Origin: Citreicoccus inhibens
GTDB taxonomy: Bacteria > Myxococcota > Myxococcia > Myxococcales > Myxococcaceae
DNA: 64,000 nt
Direction: 5' to 3'
NCBI RefSeq assembly: GCF_019039035.1
Contig: NZ_JAHNZT010000018.1
Span: 1-64,000, forward strand
This document shows positions 27,911-64,000 of this stretch, one piece after another (within the stretch, counting starts at the first letter, position 1; every line of letters begins with the position of its first letter). The notes under the pieces were generated by a model. The model was not told the origin of the DNA. It ran no database searches and saw nothing but the letters and a program-made list of their open reading frames with translations. Both the position numbers and the translations under genes were made by a program.

Positions 27911-28819
27911 CTAGGCCAGCGCCTCACCTCGCGCAGCAGGCACGTGAACGGCCGCGGACAGGTCCGCGGTCCCCCCGAGGAAGTCTCGAGAGTGCGCCTG
28001 GCACCACGCCTCGAAGCTGCGCGGACGCTGGCCCGTCATCTGTTCAACGGTGGGTGTCACCACCGCTGCCCTGCCTGCTCTGACCTGAGCGGAATCCTGC
28101 ACCACCGCCTCCGCGACCAACTCCGGGCAGCCCGTCTTGCGAAGGAGCGAAGCAGCGGCCTCCACCGACAGGTTCACCCCGCGCAGTGGACGACCCAGCG
28201 CGGCGGACAGGATGCGCACCTGCTCGCCCACGCTCAGCAGCTCGGCACCGGTGAGTTCGTACGTCCTGCCCTCGTGGCCCGGCGTGGTCAGCGCGGTGGC
28301 CGCGACGCGGGCGATGTCGCTCGCGTCGATGGGGGCGACCCGGCCGTCTCCCGTGAAATGGTACACGGCGCCCTCCGCGCGGATGGAGGCCGCCCACTGG
28401 AGCGCGTCCGACATGCAGGCGCCCGGACGAATGGCGGTCCACGCCAGCCCCGAGGTCTCCAGCAGTTGCTCGCGCTCGCGATGCCACTGCCCCAACAAGG
28501 ACAGCGGCGCCATGCCCGCCGACAGCGCGGACAGCGTCACCACGTGCCGCACGCCGGAGTGCTTCGCCGCCTCCAACGCGTGCGCCGCGGGCACCAGCGT
28601 GGGCCCCGACGTCTGGAGCAACAGCCGCTCCACGTCGCGCATGGCGACGCGCAGCGAGTCCGGCCGCCCCAGGTCACCGCGCGCCACCTCCACCCGCGCG
28701 TCCAGCCCCGCCGGCCGCGCGCCGTCCCGGCTGAGCACGCGGACGCGCTCACCCGCCGAGAGCAACTGCGTGACGACGGCGCGCCCCACGCGGCCCGTCG
28801 CGCCCGTTACGAGAATCAT
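27911..28819 (-). CDS. NmrA/NAD(P)-binding atypical SDR protein
   Basis: This 302-residue protein starts at ATG 28819 after GAGGTGG. The N-terminus MILVTGATGRVGRAVV is the GxxGxxG dinucleotide loop of NmrA-like SDRs. ARGDLGRPDSL and TLSALSA strands follow. The canonical YxxxK catalytic pair is not seen, which is usual for NmrA-type regulators and for QOR2-like quinone reductases. It probably binds NADP and senses redox state or reduces a quinone. The upstream acyl-CoA dehydrogenase gene lies 121 bases away on the same strand, while the glutaredoxin gene follows closely. Confidence 0.88.
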   Translation of the reverse strand: MILVTGATGRVGRAVVTQLLSAGERVRVLSRDGARPAGLDARVEVARGDLGRPDSLRVAMRDVERLLLQTSGPTLVPAAHALEAAKHSGVRHVVTLSALSAGMAPLSLLGQWHREREQLLETSGLAWTAIRPGACMSDALQWAASIRAEGAVYHFTGDGRVAPIDASDIARVAATALTTPGHEGRTYELTGAELLSVGEQVRILSAALGRPLRGVNLSVEAAASLLRKTGCPELVAEAVVQDSAQVRAGRAAVVTPTVEQMTGQRPRSFEAWCQAHSRDFLGGTADLSAAVHVPAARGEALA

Positions 28820-28940
28820 CGTCCACCTCGCAGCTTGTCCACGCCGGCATCCTCGGGGGCGTGCGTGAAGCCAACCCCCTGAGGCGTGTGAAGAAATGCA
28901 AAGCGACGGGCGCTCTCCCACGAAGGCGCGGCGGCCTGCG

Positions 28941-30086
28941 TCAGAACGCGAAGGTGCGCGCGATGATCTCCTTCATGACCTCGGAGGTGCCGCCCCCGAT
29001 GGTGAGCATGCGCGCGTCGCGCCACGCGCGGGCCACGGGCGTCTCCTCCACGTAGCCCATGCCGCCGTAGAACTGCTGACAGTCATAGGCCACGCGCTGG
29101 GCCAGCTCGCTGGTGAGCAGCTTGGCCATGGAGATCTCCTTCACGGGCTTGGCCTTGCGGCTGCGCTCATACAGGTCCACCGCGTGGTAGGTCAGGCGCC
29201 GCGCGGCCTCCAGCATCGTCAGGTGCTCGACGAACTTGTGGCGCCACACCTGGAAGTCGATCAACCGCTGACCGAAGGCCTCTCGCTCGCGGCCGTATCG
29301 CAGCGCGTCCTTCAAGAGCCACTCCATCACCGCCACCGTGTTGAGCGCCGTCACGAGGCGCTCCGAGTGGAAGCTGCTCATGATGTACGAGAAGCCGTCG
29401 TTCTCGCGGCCGAGCACGTAGCGCGCGGGGATGCGGCAGTCCTCGAAGTAGAGGAGGGCCATGTCCGACGCGCGCTGCCCTACCTTCTCCAGCTTGCGCG
29501 ACACCTGGAAGCCCTTCACATCCGTGGGGAACGTCACCAGCGAGATGCCCGAGGCACCCGGGCCGCCCGTGCGCACCGCCAGCACGAGGAAGTCCGCGCT
29601 CGCGCCGTTGGTGATCCACGCCTTCGAGCCGTGAATGACGTAGTCGTCGCCGTCTCGCCGCGCGGTGGTGCGCAGCTGCGCCAGGTCCGAGCCGGCGCTC
29701 GACTCACTCATCGCCAGCGCGGCGATGCGCTCCCCGCGGAGCGCGGGCGCGAGGAACTCGCGCTGCTGCTCATCCGTGCCCAGCTCGTTGAGCACCGGCG
29801 TGGCCATCTGCCCTTGCACCAGCAGCGCCATGCTCACGCCCGCGTTCTGACTGCGCGCCAGCTCCTCCGCGAACGCCGCCACGTACCAGTAATCCAGACC
29901 GCTGCCCCCATGGCGCGGATCATGGTTGATGCCGAAGAGCCCCAGCGCGCCGCACTTCGCGAACACGTCGCGCGGGAAGCTCCCCGCCCGGTCCCACTCC
30001 AGCGCGTGGGGCGCCAGCTCCCGCTCCACGAACTGCCGCACCGTGCGGCGGAAGGCGTCGTGCTCCGGGGTGAACCGCTCGTGCAT
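28941..30086 (-). CDS. Acyl-CoA dehydrogenase
   Basis: This 381-residue flavoprotein catalyses alpha,beta-dehydrogenation of an acyl-CoA thioester. It shows the FAD-binding ALAMSESSAGSDL and ITNG segments, the substrate-side FEDCRIPA, and the C-terminal YGGMGYVEETPVARAWRDAR, where the second Glu of VEETP aligns with the catalytic base. The IGGGTSEV FAD-loop follows. The ATG at 30086 has AAGGA upstream. It is a stand-alone gene with an inverted repeat in front. Its acyl specificity cannot be told; branched-chain or short-chain acyl-CoA is likely. Confidence 0.93.
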   Translation of the reverse strand: MHERFTPEHDAFRRTVRQFVERELAPHALEWDRAGSFPRDVFAKCGALGLFGINHDPRHGGSGLDYWYVAAFAEELARSQNAGVSMALLVQGQMATPVLNELGTDEQQREFLAPALRGERIAALAMSESSAGSDLAQLRTTARRDGDDYVIHGSKAWITNGASADFLVLAVRTGGPGASGISLVTFPTDVKGFQVSRKLEKVGQRASDMALLYFEDCRIPARYVLGRENDGFSYIMSSFHSERLVTALNTVAVMEWLLKDALRYGREREAFGQRLIDFQVWRHKFVEHLTMLEAARRLTYHAVDLYERSRKAKPVKEISMAKLLTSELAQRVAYDCQQFYGGMGYVEETPVARAWRDARMLTIGGGTSEVMKEIIARTFAF

Positions 30087-55624: not shown

Positions 55625-56263
55625 TCAGCGCGCCAGCTCCGCGTCGATGAGCCGCACGAAGTCCTCGACGGGCTGCGCGCCCGTCACCGCCTGGCTGTTG
55701 ACGAAGAAGGTGGGCGTGCCGAGGACTCCGCGCGAGCGCGCCTCCACCGCGTCCGCCTCCACGTAGGAATCCCACGCGTGCTTGTCGAGCGCGCCGCGGA
55801 AGCGCGCCACGTCCAACCCCAGCTTGCGCGCCAGCGCCTCCAGCCCCGCGCGCTCCAACGCGTCCTGGTTGGCGAAGAGGGCGTCGTGGAACTCCCAGAA
55901 CTTCCCCTGCTCGTTCGCGGCCATGGCGGCGGCGGCGGCCTGCCTGGCGTGCGGGTGCGACGGCAGCGGCAGATGACGGAAGACGAAGCGCACCCGGTCC
56001 CCGTACTTCGCACGCAGCGCGCTCAAGGTCGTCGCGCCGCGCGCGCAATAGGGGCACTCGAAGTCGGACCACACCTCCACCGTCACGCGCGCGGCGGTGG
56101 GCCCCACCGACGGGGCCTCGGCGCGGGGCGTGGCGGCGCGGGGCGTGGGGCGCGCGTCGACCGCCTCGGGGCGCGCCTTGTCACACTCGGCCGCGGAGCT
56201 GGCGAGCGACGTGAGCGGGAACAGCAGGACAGCAGACCACGACAGCATGAGCCGACGGTTCAT
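55625..56263 (-). CDS. DsbA-family exported thiol-disulfide protein
   Basis: This 212-residue protein has a signal peptide (about 1-27), then a Pro/Ala/Arg linker. A DsbA/Thioredoxin_4-type domain follows from about 58: WSDFECPYCARG with the redox CPYC, and GVLGTPTFFVN with the cis-Pro. A helical insert with PHARQAAAAAMAANEQG and KFWEFHDALF is typical of the DsbA-like group. It probably introduces or isomerises disulfides in the periplasm, which suits the many cysteine-rich exported proteins in this window. The ATG at 56263 has AGGTG at ideal spacing. It is convergent with the P450 gene. Confidence 0.9.
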   Translation of the reverse strand: MNRRLMLSWSAVLLFPLTSLASSAAECDKARPEAVDARPTPRAATPRAEAPSVGPTAARVTVEVWSDFECPYCARGATTLSALRAKYGDRVRFVFRHLPLPSHPHARQAAAAAMAANEQGKFWEFHDALFANQDALERAGLEALARKLGLDVARFRGALDKHAWDSYVEADAVEARSRGVLGTPTFFVNSQAVTGAQPVEDFVRLIDAELAR

Positions 56264-56385
56264 GGACATCACCTGGAGATGTGGGGTGTGAAAAGGGCCA
56301 GCAGCGCGGAGCGACCTTGGCCGCGCGCCAAGGAGTGACCCGAGCGCGCCGCCGGTTTCATCGACCGCGTGTTATCCCCTTCACC

Positions 56386-57588
56386 ATGCGCCCCACCGAG
56401 CGGCTCTACTTCGCGGATCCCTTCCTCCTCCACTTCCAAGCCCGAGTGCTCGCCCATGCGCAGTTCCAGGGCGTGCCCTCCGTCGTGCTGGACCAGACCG
56501 CCTTCTATCCGGAGGCGGGCGGGCAGATGGCGGACCACGGCGTGCTCGGCGGCCTGCTTGTGCGCGATGTCCAGGTGGACGACGCGGGCGTGGTGCACCA
56601 CCTGCTCACGCGGGATGCCGGCGCCGCGCTCCCCGACGTGGGCACCGAGCTGACCGGCGACGTGGACCGCGCGCGGCGCCGCGCGCACATGGCGCTGCAC
56701 ACCGGCCAGCACATGCTGTCGCGAGCGCTCCTGGACGTGGCGGGCGCGGCCACGGTGTCCTCGCGGCTGGGCGAGACGCTGTGCACCCTCGACACGGACC
56801 TGGACGCGCTCGATGAGCGGCGAGTGGCCGAGGCCGAGGCGCTCGTCAACGCGGTCATCGACGACGACGTGCGGATTCGCGCCTTCTTCCCCACCCCGGA
56901 GGAGCTGGCCGCGCTGCCGCTGCGCCGGGCGCCCAAGGTGAGCGCCTCCATCCGCATCATCCAGATTGGCGACTTCGACGTGTCCCCCTGCGGCGGGACC
57001 CACTGCACGGGCTCGGCGCAGGTGGGGCTCGTGCGCGTGCTGGGCGTGGAGCGCTACAAGGGCAAGGGGCGCGTCCTCTTCTCCGCGGGGCCACGCGCGC
57101 GCCGCGAGCTGTGGGAGGAGGCCGGCGTCCTCAGGAGCCTGGGCCGCGCCTTCAGCTGCGGCCCCGCCGAGGTCCCCACCGTGGTGGACAAGCTCCAGCG
57201 CGACCTCACCACCGCCCGCGAGGCCCTGGGCGCGGCCCGCGCGCGGCAGGCCGAGCACACCGCCCGGCAGTTGGCGGAGCAACTGGCGCGCGCCGACGAT
57301 GCCCGCGTGGTCGCGGTGCTGGACACCGCCGGCCCGGAGGAGCTGCGCGCCGTGGCCGCCCGCCTCCTCTCCCACCCCAAGGCCGTGGTGCTCCTGGCGG
57401 GGCGCACGCCCGAGGGCATGCCGGTGCTGGTGGCCCGAGGCCCCCAGTCCACCTTCGCCTGCGGGGCCTTCCTCAAGCGCGCCGCCGAGGCCGCGGGAGG
57501 CCGGGGCGGCGGACGCCCCGAGCACGCGGAGGGTCGCCTGCCCCTCACCACCGACTGGCCCGCGCTCGTCGCCAGACTCTGGGAGTGA
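56386..57588 (+). CDS. Alanyl-tRNA editing protein, long AlaX type
   Basis: This 400-residue protein hydrolyses mischarged Ser- or Gly-tRNA(Ala). It has the AlaRS editing fold without the aminoacylation domain. The zinc/active-site residues are intact: H105 and H109 in HTGQH, and C202 and H206 in PCGGTHC. The N-terminal add domain contains YPEAGGQ, and the C-terminal part (about 300-400) resembles the AlaRS DHHA1 domain, so it is the long AlaX group. The ATG at 56386 (MRPTERLYF) is the likely start. No neighbour points to a specific pathway. The divergent DsbA-like gene starts 123 bases away. Confidence 0.9.
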   Translation: MRPTERLYFADPFLLHFQARVLAHAQFQGVPSVVLDQTAFYPEAGGQMADHGVLGGLLVRDVQVDDAGVVHHLLTRDAGAALPDVGTELTGDVDRARRRAHMALHTGQHMLSRALLDVAGAATVSSRLGETLCTLDTDLDALDERRVAEAEALVNAVIDDDVRIRAFFPTPEELAALPLRRAPKVSASIRIIQIGDFDVSPCGGTHCTGSAQVGLVRVLGVERYKGKGRVLFSAGPRARRELWEEAGVLRSLGRAFSCGPAEVPTVVDKLQRDLTTAREALGAARARQAEHTARQLAEQLARADDARVVAVLDTAGPEELRAVAARLLSHPKAVVLLAGRTPEGMPVLVARGPQSTFACGAFLKRAAEAAGGRGGGRPEHAEGRLPLTTDWPALVARLWE

Positions 57589-57864
57589 GGGTTTCGCAGC
57601 CTGCCAGCGCAACGCCGGAGGTGGATTCGCGAAAATGTTTCATCCACCTGATTCATCGTCTCACAGGGTGGGAGGACTTCACCCCATGGCGGGTTCAGAC
57701 CCACCCAGGTTTCCCTCTGAGAGCGCGGGTAATTTGACTCTTCGCACCATGTGTTTTGATCCAAGATTCAGCATGGTGAGCGTTGTATCGGACGCGACCC
57801 CAGCAGGTGCGTCAGGGCTGGAGCGTAATGTGCACGGCATCAAGAAGGGGCTGGGGGGACTTGG

Positions 57865-58302
57865 ATGAAGTTGAACGGCCGTTTGAATGCCTTTGGTGAT
57901 TTCGTCCGTGAGTACCGACCGGACCTGGAGCGCCTGGCCGCGCGGTTGTGCGCGGGCAGCAAGTTCGATCCGGAAGACCTGGTGAGCGAGACCCTGGAGC
58001 AGGCCCTGCACGTCTTCGAGACGCTGGAGGACCGGAACGCCAGCGCCGTGCGCGGCTGGCTGCTCACCACGATGCACCAGTGCTTCCTGGAGCAGTGCAG
58101 CCGGCAGGTCTCGGACGCGCGCCCGGTGGCGCCGCCCGTGCCGCTGGAGCTGGCCCGGCTGTCCGCGCCGGCGCTGGATGAGGGCGTCAAGAAGACCCTC
58201 GAGATGCTGCGCGCCCGCTTCCGCGAGGTGTACGCGAAGCCCGCCTCCGCCACGGAGCCTTCCCCCCTGCCGAGCGGTGGCGCCACGCACTGGCGGATGT
58301 AA
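57865..58302 (+). CDS. Truncated sigma-70-like protein (region 2, region 4 cut)
   Basis: This 145-residue protein resembles an ECF sigma factor without a functional C-terminus. Region 2 is clear: KFDPEDLVSETLEQALHVFE and AVRGWLLTTMHQCFLEQC. The start of region 4 appears as LEMLRARFREVY, but it then switches to a Pro/Ala/Ser-rich tail ending in THWRM. The helix-turn-helix that would bind the -35 element is absent. It could be a decoy, an anti-sigma-like partner, or a decaying gene. Position, 167 bases upstream of a full sigma gene of the same type, makes a regulatory role possible. The start lacks a strong ribosome-binding site (ggggactTggATG-like). Confidence 0.65.
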   Translation: MKLNGRLNAFGDFVREYRPDLERLAARLCAGSKFDPEDLVSETLEQALHVFETLEDRNASAVRGWLLTTMHQCFLEQCSRQVSDARPVAPPVPLELARLSAPALDEGVKKTLEMLRARFREVYAKPASATEPSPLPSGGATHWRM

Positions 58303-58469
58303 CGAAGACAGCGGCCTCCCCACACCCGAGCACGGGCACAGCCCCCCAGGGCCGCCCAGAGCCGGTGTGGGTGGTGAGGCCCCGGCCCCTGGGCCGTGAC
58401 GCGTCCTGGACTTTCCCGCGAAGAGACTTCACGTTCGGCGTTCATACGGCCGGAGGGGGCACTCCAAGC

Positions 58470-59048
58470 TTGGACCGACGCGAATTCAGGGAGACGAAGA
58501 ACGGGCCTGCCGCCCCGCCAGTCGACCGTCGTCGGTTCGAGGCGTTCGCGCGTGCGCGGCGGCCGGGCCTGCTGCGCATGGCCATGCGGCTGTGCACGGG
58601 CGGCGGCATCGACGCGGAGGACCTGGTGCAGGAGACCCTGGAGCGCGCCTATCGGCATTTCGACCAGTTGGAGGGAGAACCCGTCGGCGCGATCGCCGTC
58701 TGGCTGAGTACCACCCTGAGCAACCGCTTCCTGGACCACTGCCGTCGCCGGCGCACCGAGGCGCTGGGCCAGCCCGCCCTGCGCGTGGTGCAGCTCGCCG
58801 AGACCTCCTCCGAGCCCACGCCCCATGAGCAGTGGGAGCGCGTCTCCCGCGAGGACTTCGAGCGCGCCATCGAGGCGCTCCCCGAGCCCCAACGCACCGC
58901 CTACCGCCTGCACGCCTCCGGCCTGCGCTACCGCGCCATCTCCCGCCAGTTGGAAGGCGTCCCGGAAGGCACCGTGGGGCGCTGGCTGACCGAGGCGCGC
59001 CAGTCCCTGCGCCTCCAGCTGTCCGCCGACGACGGGTCCACGCCATGA
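58470..59048 (+). CDS. ECF-type sigma-70 family RNA polymerase sigma factor
   Basis: This 192-residue sigma factor has region 2 with GGIDAEDLVQETLERAYRHF and AIAVWLSTTLSNRFLDHC, and region 4 with LPEPQRTAYRLHASGLRYRA and VPEGTVGRWLTEARQSL. The region 4 helix-turn-helix binds the -35 element. The chosen start is TTG at 58470, preceded by GGAGGGGG at 11 bases; a GTG at 58365 is possible but weak. Its stop overlaps the start of the CHAT-anti-sigma gene by four bases (ATGA, 59045-59048). It is therefore made in step with that protein, which is expected to restrain it. Confidence 0.9.
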   Translation: MDRREFRETKNGPAAPPVDRRRFEAFARARRPGLLRMAMRLCTGGGIDAEDLVQETLERAYRHFDQLEGEPVGAIAVWLSTTLSNRFLDHCRRRRTEALGQPALRVVQLAETSSEPTPHEQWERVSREDFERAIEALPEPQRTAYRLHASGLRYRAISRQLEGVPEGTVGRWLTEARQSLRLQLSADDGSTP

Positions 59049-62002: not shown

Positions 62003-62521
62003 ATGAAGAAGCATCTGCTGCTGCTGCCGCTGCTGCTGCTGGCGGTCTCCGGCTGTTTCTCCCGTTCCATCGAGCCAGACCGAATCCTGCCCAAGGACAT
62101 CCCGGCGGGGATGGTCGTCACGGTCGTCGCCAGCAGCCCCCAGAACCCGGACCTCTACGTGGGCTACGTCGTGGACGCCAACACCGCCGCTGTTCTCCTC
62201 CAGCGCGAGTCCAGCAGCCTCGACGAGTTGGCCGTCTGGCTGCGCCGCTCGACCGGCAACACGCCGAGACTTCAAGCGCAGGCGCAGGCGCAGCACACCG
62301 CGTCCGGTGCCTCCGCGCCGTCCGCCGTGGCGACCTGCATCGACGCGGCGGGCAAGCCCTGCTCGCTCATCGCCAACGCGGGTGACGTCCCCGGCAAGGG
62401 CGGCGGCCCAGGCCCCACAGGCACCGAGTGGAGGAGGTACATCTACCAGCTCTCGCGCTTCATCATCTCCAACAACCTGCCCTACAAGACCCTGGAGCAG
62501 GTGACGCACGTCGCGAAGTAG
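62003..62521 (+). CDS. Small lipoprotein downstream of the CHAT-anti-sigma gene
   Basis: This 172-residue lipoprotein starts at ATG 62003, 27 bases after the CHAT gene, and probably shares its transcript. The signal peptide is a Leu/CTG-rich run (KKHLLLLPLLLLAVSGC) ending in lipobox VSGC, so Cys18 is lipidated. The mature protein has a small beta-rich part (VVTVVASSPQNPDLYVGYVVD), an Ala/Gln-rich linker, and two cysteines (ATCIDAAGKPCS). I do not recognise it. It may be a sensor or a substrate for the CHAT protease in the periplasm. Confidence 0.7.
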   Translation: MKKHLLLLPLLLLAVSGCFSRSIEPDRILPKDIPAGMVVTVVASSPQNPDLYVGYVVDANTAAVLLQRESSSLDELAVWLRRSTGNTPRLQAQAQAQHTASGASAPSAVATCIDAAGKPCSLIANAGDVPGKGGGPGPTGTEWRRYIYQLSRFIISNNLPYKTLEQVTHVAK

Positions 62522-62652: not shown

Positions 62653-64000
62653 TCACTCCGTCGCGGCGCGCCCCTGGGTGAGCGCCTCGACGTAGGCCGT
62701 GGCCACCGCGAGGAACCGCCCGCCCCGCACGCCCGTCAGGTACTGGCGCTTCATGGCGCGCGTGGCCCCCACGTAGAACATGGCGCGGCGGATCCGCTCG
62801 TTCTCCCGCGCGCCGCGCTGGCGGGCCCCGGCCATCCACGCCTCGATGGCGTCCAGCGCCTCCAACCCCGCGAAGAAGACGACGGGGCACTCGTGGCCCT
62901 TGCACGAGAAGACCGTGGTGGCGCGCACATGGTCCACGCCCGTGACGCGGAAGTCCGCCGCGTCTCGGCCCCCCTTGCCACCGTAGGCCTCGGCCGGAAC
63001 GCCCGCGCGCTGGAGCGCCTGGGTGAAGGTGGCCGGCATCACCGGCGCCACCACGAGGATGTCTCCCGGCTTCACGCCCTCCTCGCGCACCAGCCGCGCC
63101 ACCTCCTTGGCCACCCAGCGCGCCTCGCTCGTCGTGGAGGCGAAGCCGCGCACGGTGGGCACCACGCCGCCGCGCTCGGTGGACTGCACGCGGTAGAGCC
63201 CTTCCAGCGTCTCCTCGGGGAGCCACACGAGCCCCTCGCGCGCCAATTCCCCCACCTTCATGTACTCGCGCATCCCGGGGTCACCCACGGCGTGCTGGCG
63301 CAAGGGGTCCAGCACCACGTTGAAGGCCACGTCGAGGATGTCGCGCGTGGCGCGGAACGTCTCCTTCAGCACGCGGGTGCGGCCTCGGAAGGACAGGCCC
63401 TCCGGGAGCTGCTCCTTGAGCAACTCGATGGGCACCTGGCCGTAGACGTTCTGCGAGTCATCCATGAAGAGCTGGAAGCAGCGCGCCTCCTTCCCGTCCT
63501 CGGTGAGGTGCGGGCGCACGAGCCCGTAGAGCGTGGCCAGCGCCTTGGCGTCCATGTCCTGCGCCTCGTCCACGAAGACGGCGTCGAAGCTGCCGGGCTC
63601 GGGCCGGCGCAGCGCGCCCACGTGCCGCACCGTCACCTGGGTGCGCAGCTCGCGCACCCGCTCCGCTCCCGCGCGCTGCGTGAGCGCCTCCTTCAACAGC
63701 ACCTCCACCAGCGGCGCCAGCGAGCGGTTGTAGAAGGACACCAGCACACGCGCGCGGGGGTGTTCGAGCAGGTAGCGCGCCACCCAGTTCGTCAGCACGT
63801 ACGTCTTGCCGCTGCCCGCCACGCCGCGCACCAGGTGGTGGCCTCCGTCGAAGTTGCGCTCGAAGAGGGACACCTGCTCCTGCGTGAAGAGCGGCTGCGA
63901 GCCCTTGGCGCCTTCAATCTCTCCCCCCAGGCCCGAGGGGACGAGGGGCGGCGGTGGAGGCGGTGGAGGACGCGGCTGCGGGGCGAGCGGCTCCAGGCGC
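62653..64000 (-). CDS. UvrD-like superfamily 1 helicase, N-terminus outside window
   Basis: The 449 visible residues form the C-terminal part of an SF1 helicase whose start is beyond base 64000. The visible N-terminal end is a Pro-rich linker and TQEQVSLFERN. Then come Walker A VAGSGKTYVLT, motif II VFVDEAQDMD, motif III-like MDDSQNVYG, and LKETFRAT. Motif V-like CKGHECPVVFF and motif VI GATRAMKRQYL end the core. It resembles UvrD/DEAD-type DNA helicases with ATP-dependent roles in repair. Unlike the HelD-like protein at 31292, motif II here is the ordinary DEAQD. Confidence 0.85.
   Translation of the reverse strand, partial: RLEPLAPQPRPPPPPPPPLVPSGLGGEIEGAKGSQPLFTQEQVSLFERNFDGGHHLVRGVAGSGKTYVLTNWVARYLLEHPRARVLVSFYNRSLAPLVEVLLKEALTQRAGAERVRELRTQVTVRHVGALRRPEPGSFDAVFVDEAQDMDAKALATLYGLVRPHLTEDGKEARCFQLFMDDSQNVYGQVPIELLKEQLPEGLSFRGRTRVLKETFRATRDILDVAFNVVLDPLRQHAVGDPGMREYMKVGELAREGLVWLPEETLEGLYRVQSTERGGVVPTVRGFASTTSEARWVAKEVARLVREEGVKPGDILVVAPVMPATFTQALQRAGVPAEAYGGKGGRDAADFRVTGVDHVRATTVFSCKGHECPVVFFAGLEALDAIEAWMAGARQRGARENERIRRAMFYVGATRAMKRQYLTGVRGGRFLAVATAYVEALTQGRAATE

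Follow-up and report, generated by a model that had tools for sequence, protein, structure and literature searches.

The window, a 64,000-nucleotide stretch of Citreicoccus inhibens DNA, contains an open reading frame whose product is a truncated ECF sigma-like protein, as the original prediction had described (Table 1). Specifically, Pfam assigns residues 13-81 to Sigma70_r2 (PF04542, E=3.2e-9), a domain for which a permissive threshold gave matches in 12 of the 12 members of alignment A1, and finds in the 145-residue product neither a region 4 match (PF08281) nor a second domain such as a receiver domain. In a small local search, the stretch DEGVKKTLEMLRARFREVYA aligned with the first region 4 helix of a homologous full sigma factor (E=0.003). 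The protein thus comprises region 2, a linker and this helix 1. In a comparison of region 4 from four homologous sigma factors with all frames, helix 1 alone was matched and no hidden helix-turn-helix (HTH) was found downstream, which rules out a frameshifted or hidden region 4 and bears out the earlier view that region 4 opens and its HTH is missing. The Pro/Ala tail predicted in place of the HTH needs qualification: there is no HTH, but the tail is not arbitrary, as the protein ends in Trp-Arg-Met, with the Trp-Arg invariant in two genera. Because MAFFT places this final Trp on the W of the HTH motif GTVGxW of full sigma factors, the truncated protein may owe its form to an internal deletion combined with an early stop and not to a clean cut, a hint only, given the shortness of the aligned stretch.

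A complete sigma gene does lie 167 bases downstream on the same strand, as predicted, with a possible TTG start and with regions 2 and 4 present. This full sigma factor retains region 4 together with the signature residues of regions 2.2 and 2.4. In the ZAS-TPR-CHAT protein encoded next to it, His843 or His845 forms a candidate protease dyad with Cys892, at a distance of 47-49 residues. CHAT proteins in the genomic context have been described for the group ECF54 (PMC8999054). Additionally, the TPR-CHAT protease Csx29 of type III-E CRISPR cleaves the sigma inhibitor Csx30 (PMC10028731), and by analogy CHAT-based sigma control may therefore recur here within a single anti-sigma-TPR-CHAT chain.

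Table 1. Genes and sequence features at the truncated sigma locus, in window coordinates
Feature	Position	Strand	Remarks
DsbA-like thioredoxin-fold (-) and AlaX-like alanyl-tRNA editing (+) proteins	55625-57585	-, +	Upstream neighbours
ECF-type promoter-like site of the truncated gene, CCAAGA-N14-CGTTGTATCG	57761-57790	+	Ends 75 bases before the ATG
Truncated ECF sigma-like protein	57865-58302	+	ATG start, 145 aa; conserved in genome G001 and 15 Corallococcus genomes
Sigma region 2 domain, residues 13-81	57901-58107	+	Pfam match, model, alignment
Retained region 4 helix 1, residues 106-123	58180-58233	+	Alignment, model
Conserved C-terminal Trp-Arg-Met	58291-58299	+	Directly before the stop; comparison across copies
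ECF-type promoter-like site of the full sigma gene, CGAAGA-N14-CGTTCATACG	58419-58448	+	Same blocks and spacing
Complete ECF sigma factor, regions 2 and 4	58470-59048	+	Pfam; TTG start assumed
zf-HC2 (ZAS-type anti-sigma)-TPR-CHAT protein, 976 aa	59045-61975	+	Pfam; N-terminal HxxxCxxC
Small lipoprotein-like gene	62003-62521	+	Last in the sigma/ZAS-CHAT module
Helicase gene, synteny anchor	62653-64000	-	Tail-to-tail with the module; runs past the window end

Distribution, selection and synteny

Whole-genome searches across the family turned up the truncated form in the window's genus, where both genomes carry it (94% identity), and in 15 of the 16 Corallococcus genomes. Each of the 17 copies is intact, free of disruptions and has the same end point, and these homologues in two genera lack region 4 as well; the presence of the form in the second own-genus genome and in Corallococcus rules out a strain-specific oddity. 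Between the genera, the truncated proteins share about 50% identity, with LRARFREVY and the C-terminal WR invariant. An alignment search returned truncated copies only from Corallococcus and one Myxococcaceae MAG, and a profile search of 145 genomes found no truncated members elsewhere in the order. Searching the genome contigs with the single truncated protein yielded no relative, a 29-residue C-terminal query gave no convincing further members in the family, and a literature search returned nothing on truncated ECF sigma factors in myxobacteria.

The truncated gene is constrained in both genera. In the own-genus pair its dN/dS is 0.22. Among its neighbours, the CHAT gene has a value of 0.21, the AlaX-like gene 0.18 and the lipoprotein-like gene 0.68; this last gene evolves far faster than the genes around it and perhaps encodes the system's sensor or its output. 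In Corallococcus, the median dN/dS of the truncated gene is 0.215 over 105 pairs, and pN/pS is 0.19 in region 2, 0.19 in the region 4 helix and 0.72 in the linker. Relaxed selection and scattered disruptions, the hallmarks of a pseudogene, are not observed; with 17 genomes carrying the gene and dN/dS at about 0.22, it is neither confined to this strain nor loosely constrained.

Three gene arrangements are found around the same helicase gene. In the window's genus, the truncated gene is followed by the sigma, ZAS-TPR-CHAT and lipoprotein genes and then by the helicase gene tail-to-tail. The Myxococcus-like genomes examined have the module of sigma, CHAT and lipoprotein genes before the helicase gene, again tail-to-tail with it, and the truncated gene is absent. 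In Corallococcus, the truncated gene itself stands directly tail-to-tail with the helicase gene, with about 25-40 bases between them, and the sigma/ZAS-TPR-CHAT/lipoprotein operon is gone from this site. The second neighbour of the Corallococcus gene is an alpha/beta-hydrolase-like gene, and the DsbA-like and AlaX-like genes do not adjoin it. Because the sixteenth Corallococcus genome, which has no truncated gene, has no match to the anchor helicase either, the locus is absent from it or falls into an assembly gap. The Corallococcus genomes tested yielded no close orthologue of the neighbouring sigma factor (best match 51% identity); paralogous ECF and ZAS-TPR/CHAT genes persist there.

Residues, fold and promoter-like motif

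A comparison of the truncated proteins with 30 distinct full sigma factors separates what has been kept from what has been lost. Residues of the fold core are kept, such as Trp65, Leu66, Leu21 and Ala25. The region 2.2 Gln41 position, which by alignment corresponds to a core-contact Gln of sigma70, carries Gln in 26 of the 30 full sigma factors and is occupied by Ser or Gly in all truncated proteins of both genera (Ser41 in the window's protein). In region 2.4, the Asp76 position is Glu (Glu76 in the window's protein) or mostly Ala, and the Arg79 position is Ser (Ser79) or Gly. This Gln and the Asp/Arg pair are conserved at 87-100% in the full sigma factors, and the truncated proteins do not carry them. 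Additionally, the Corallococcus proteins have a one-residue deletion in the region 2.4 helix, the positions of Arg46 in the window's protein and of Asp38 in Corallococcus are changed, and the HTH Thr and Val, near-invariant in the 30 full sigma factors, are missing.

In two AlphaFold models, the region 2 helices are confident (pLDDT about 83-94), the region 4 helix is less certain and the tail is disordered. The model of the window's protein matches ECF region 2 structures, including those of sigma factors bound to anti-sigmas, at Z of about 9-12, and its region 2 matches the PhyR-NepR entries 3t0y and 2lfw at Z of 6.9 and 6.5. In a region-2 tree, the truncated proteins group together in a single clade (support 100/99) that lies within the full-sigma family. 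The tree places no single full sigma factor as nearest to this clade, and a tandem duplication of exactly the neighbouring sigma gene is therefore not established. Judged by the sequence features tested, the truncated protein is neither a functional sigma factor nor a PhyR.

Upstream of the truncated gene, CCAAGG and CGTTCTGACA blocks 14 bases apart are invariant in 15 of 15 Corallococcus copies, with drift in the surrounding bases. The same arrangement precedes the truncated gene of the window, the sigma gene of the window and the Myxococcus-like orthologues of that sigma gene, so that an ECF-type promoter-like motif is common to truncated and full sigma genes. Across 39 distinct ECF upstream clusters, AAGR-N14-CGTT occurs in 14, against a mean of 0.24 and a maximum of 2 in shuffles, a comparison that overstates the strength of the motif because the pattern was first spotted by eye in part of the data later counted. 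Four of these 14 clusters belong to truncated genes and 10 to full sigma genes, and the ten full-sigma clusters beyond those first seen provide the fairer support. The stronger test is the comparison of spacers, rather than a genome-wide pattern count: among the 39 clusters, other spacer lengths between AAGR and CGTT occur in 0 to 3 and reversed controls in 0 to 2. A strict genome-wide promoter pattern gave 1 site in the window's own genome and 2 in the reversed control, which is weak as statistics; in both own-genus genomes, the site lies directly upstream of another ECF gene. From its position and sequence, AAGR-N14-CGTT looks like the autoregulatory promoter of this ECF family.

Two further observations concern this motif. 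A second cluster in the genome of the window (L214; G000:C29, about 28250-30000) contains a pair of ECF sigma genes separated by about 700 bases; another ZAS-TPR-CHAT gene follows the second of them, and AAGG-N14-CGTT stands upstream of both sigma genes. In a sister ECF group (L062, L031, L188 and L103), the ECF gene is preceded by AAGR-N14-CGTC with the same spacing, which suggests that the -10 element has diverged and that a natural series of specificities exists.

Proposed sigma mimicry and its alternatives

We propose that the truncated protein is an ECF sigma paralogue cut down to region 2 and the first helix of region 4, a form with an apparently single origin within the myxobacterial ECF sigma factors that work with ZAS-TPR(-CHAT) proteins. 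Because its gene carries its own ECF-type promoter-like site, it is probably expressed while an ECF sigma factor of its family is active. The protein is very probably unable to recognise promoters, and since it keeps the region 2 fold, has lost the DNA-reading parts and is probably made together with ECF sigma factors, action through protein binding is most likely. The likeliest target would be the ZAS domain of the neighbouring anti-sigma and, in Corallococcus, that of a paralogous one; occupying it would create positive feedback by partner competition. Degenerate DNA-contact regions, a retained region 2 core and region 4 helix, and the ECF-type promoter-like motif lend indirect support to such a protein-binding mimic. 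Tentatively, therefore, our leading explanation is a conserved sigma mimic that would most likely titrate the ZAS anti-sigma so that the full sigma factor stays free for longer.

ECF anti-sigmas usually grip both sigma regions 2 and 4, and the absence of most of region 4 from the truncated protein counts against ZAS titration. We count in favour of the mimic that the gene is retained in Corallococcus without the neighbouring sigma gene, where paralogous ECF and ZAS-TPR pairs remain; a paralogous partner must be assumed there because the ancestral neighbouring anti-sigma is gone. A narrower version, rather doubtful as it stands, is a free-standing anti-anti-sigma of region 2 plus one region 4 helix that is driven by an ECF-type promoter, survived genus-wide after loss of the adjacent sigma and anti-sigma genes, and now serves paralogous ECF/ZAS-CHAT systems.

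The persistence of the Corallococcus gene without the sigma operon could also reflect a new job outside sigma regulation, for which the region 2 scaffold was co-opted. Several sigma-typical residues are lost and the conserved C-terminal Trp-Arg has no assigned role, in line with such a change, but the gene keeps the ECF-type promoter-like site that it has in common with sigma genes, and we consider this explanation unlikely, if the best placed of the alternatives. Sigma factors bind core RNA polymerase mainly through region 2, and the retained fold of this region, together with the common promoter-like motif, would equally suit negative feedback, in which the truncated protein competes with full ECF sigma factors for core RNA polymerase and forms a complex that cannot open promoters. 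However, the region 2.2 Gln is Ser or Gly in all truncated proteins and the Arg46 and Asp38 positions are altered, which leaves this explanation unlikely too and ranked next. The original prediction had offered a decoy holding either RNA polymerase or the anti-sigma; because the region 2.2 Gln, a sigma70 core contact, is replaced in both genera, the former is the weaker option and titration of the anti-sigma is preferred.

The truncated protein might instead supply region 2 of a split sigma factor, with another protein supplying region 4. Its architecture resembles that of RsoA of Bacillus subtilis, a region-2 protein that acts with SigO in promoter-specific transcription (PMC8103513), but region 2.4 residues that are near-invariant in the 30 full sigma factors are lost, the Corallococcus helix carries its deletion, and no separate region-4 gene adjoins the truncated gene in Corallococcus, which makes this explanation improbable. 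Both RNA polymerase competition and a split sigma factor are less likely than anti-sigma titration. Finally, the loss of the DNA-binding parts and the restriction to two genera would fit a decayed duplicate of the neighbouring sigma gene on its way to being lost, as had been suggested, but 17 intact and constrained copies with the same end point and a conserved promoter-like site exclude it in practice and leave it very improbable indeed.

Sigma mimicry has a functional precedent, by analogy, in PhyR of the alphaproteobacterial general stress response, a sigma-fold protein that binds the anti-sigma NepR in place of the sigma factor and so frees the latter (PMC8999054). Region 2 of the modelled truncated protein resembles that of PhyR in the complex with NepR. 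Unlike PhyR, the truncated protein has no receiver domain and lacks most of region 4, it matches the Pfam PhyR_sigma2 family only below the cut-off of that family (E=0.037), and the anti-sigma type at its locus is ZAS-TPR-CHAT rather than NepR. SigO-RsoA and a region-2-only EcfG paralogue are structural precedents. The truncated protein is, like RsoA, built on sigma region 2; in contrast to RsoA, its region 2.4 is degenerate, and the SigO-RsoA pairing differs from the locus in that the window neighbour is a complete sigma factor. Mext_0132 of Methylobacterium extorquens is such an EcfG paralogue, likewise a sigma paralogue with region 2 only (PMC4814048), but of another ECF group and class. 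The neighbouring ECF sigma factor belongs to the same family, is adjacent and has the same promoter-like motif, but keeps region 4.

Truncated sigma-like open reading frames are readily dismissed as decayed or mis-called, and the gene described here is a conserved case. Nature provides the controls, with both genes in the window's genus, the short gene only in Corallococcus and the full system only in Myxococcus-like genomes. These three arrangements therefore offer a direct test of whether sigma duplicates become feedback regulators, here with an anti-sigma that carries a fused, caspase-like CHAT domain.
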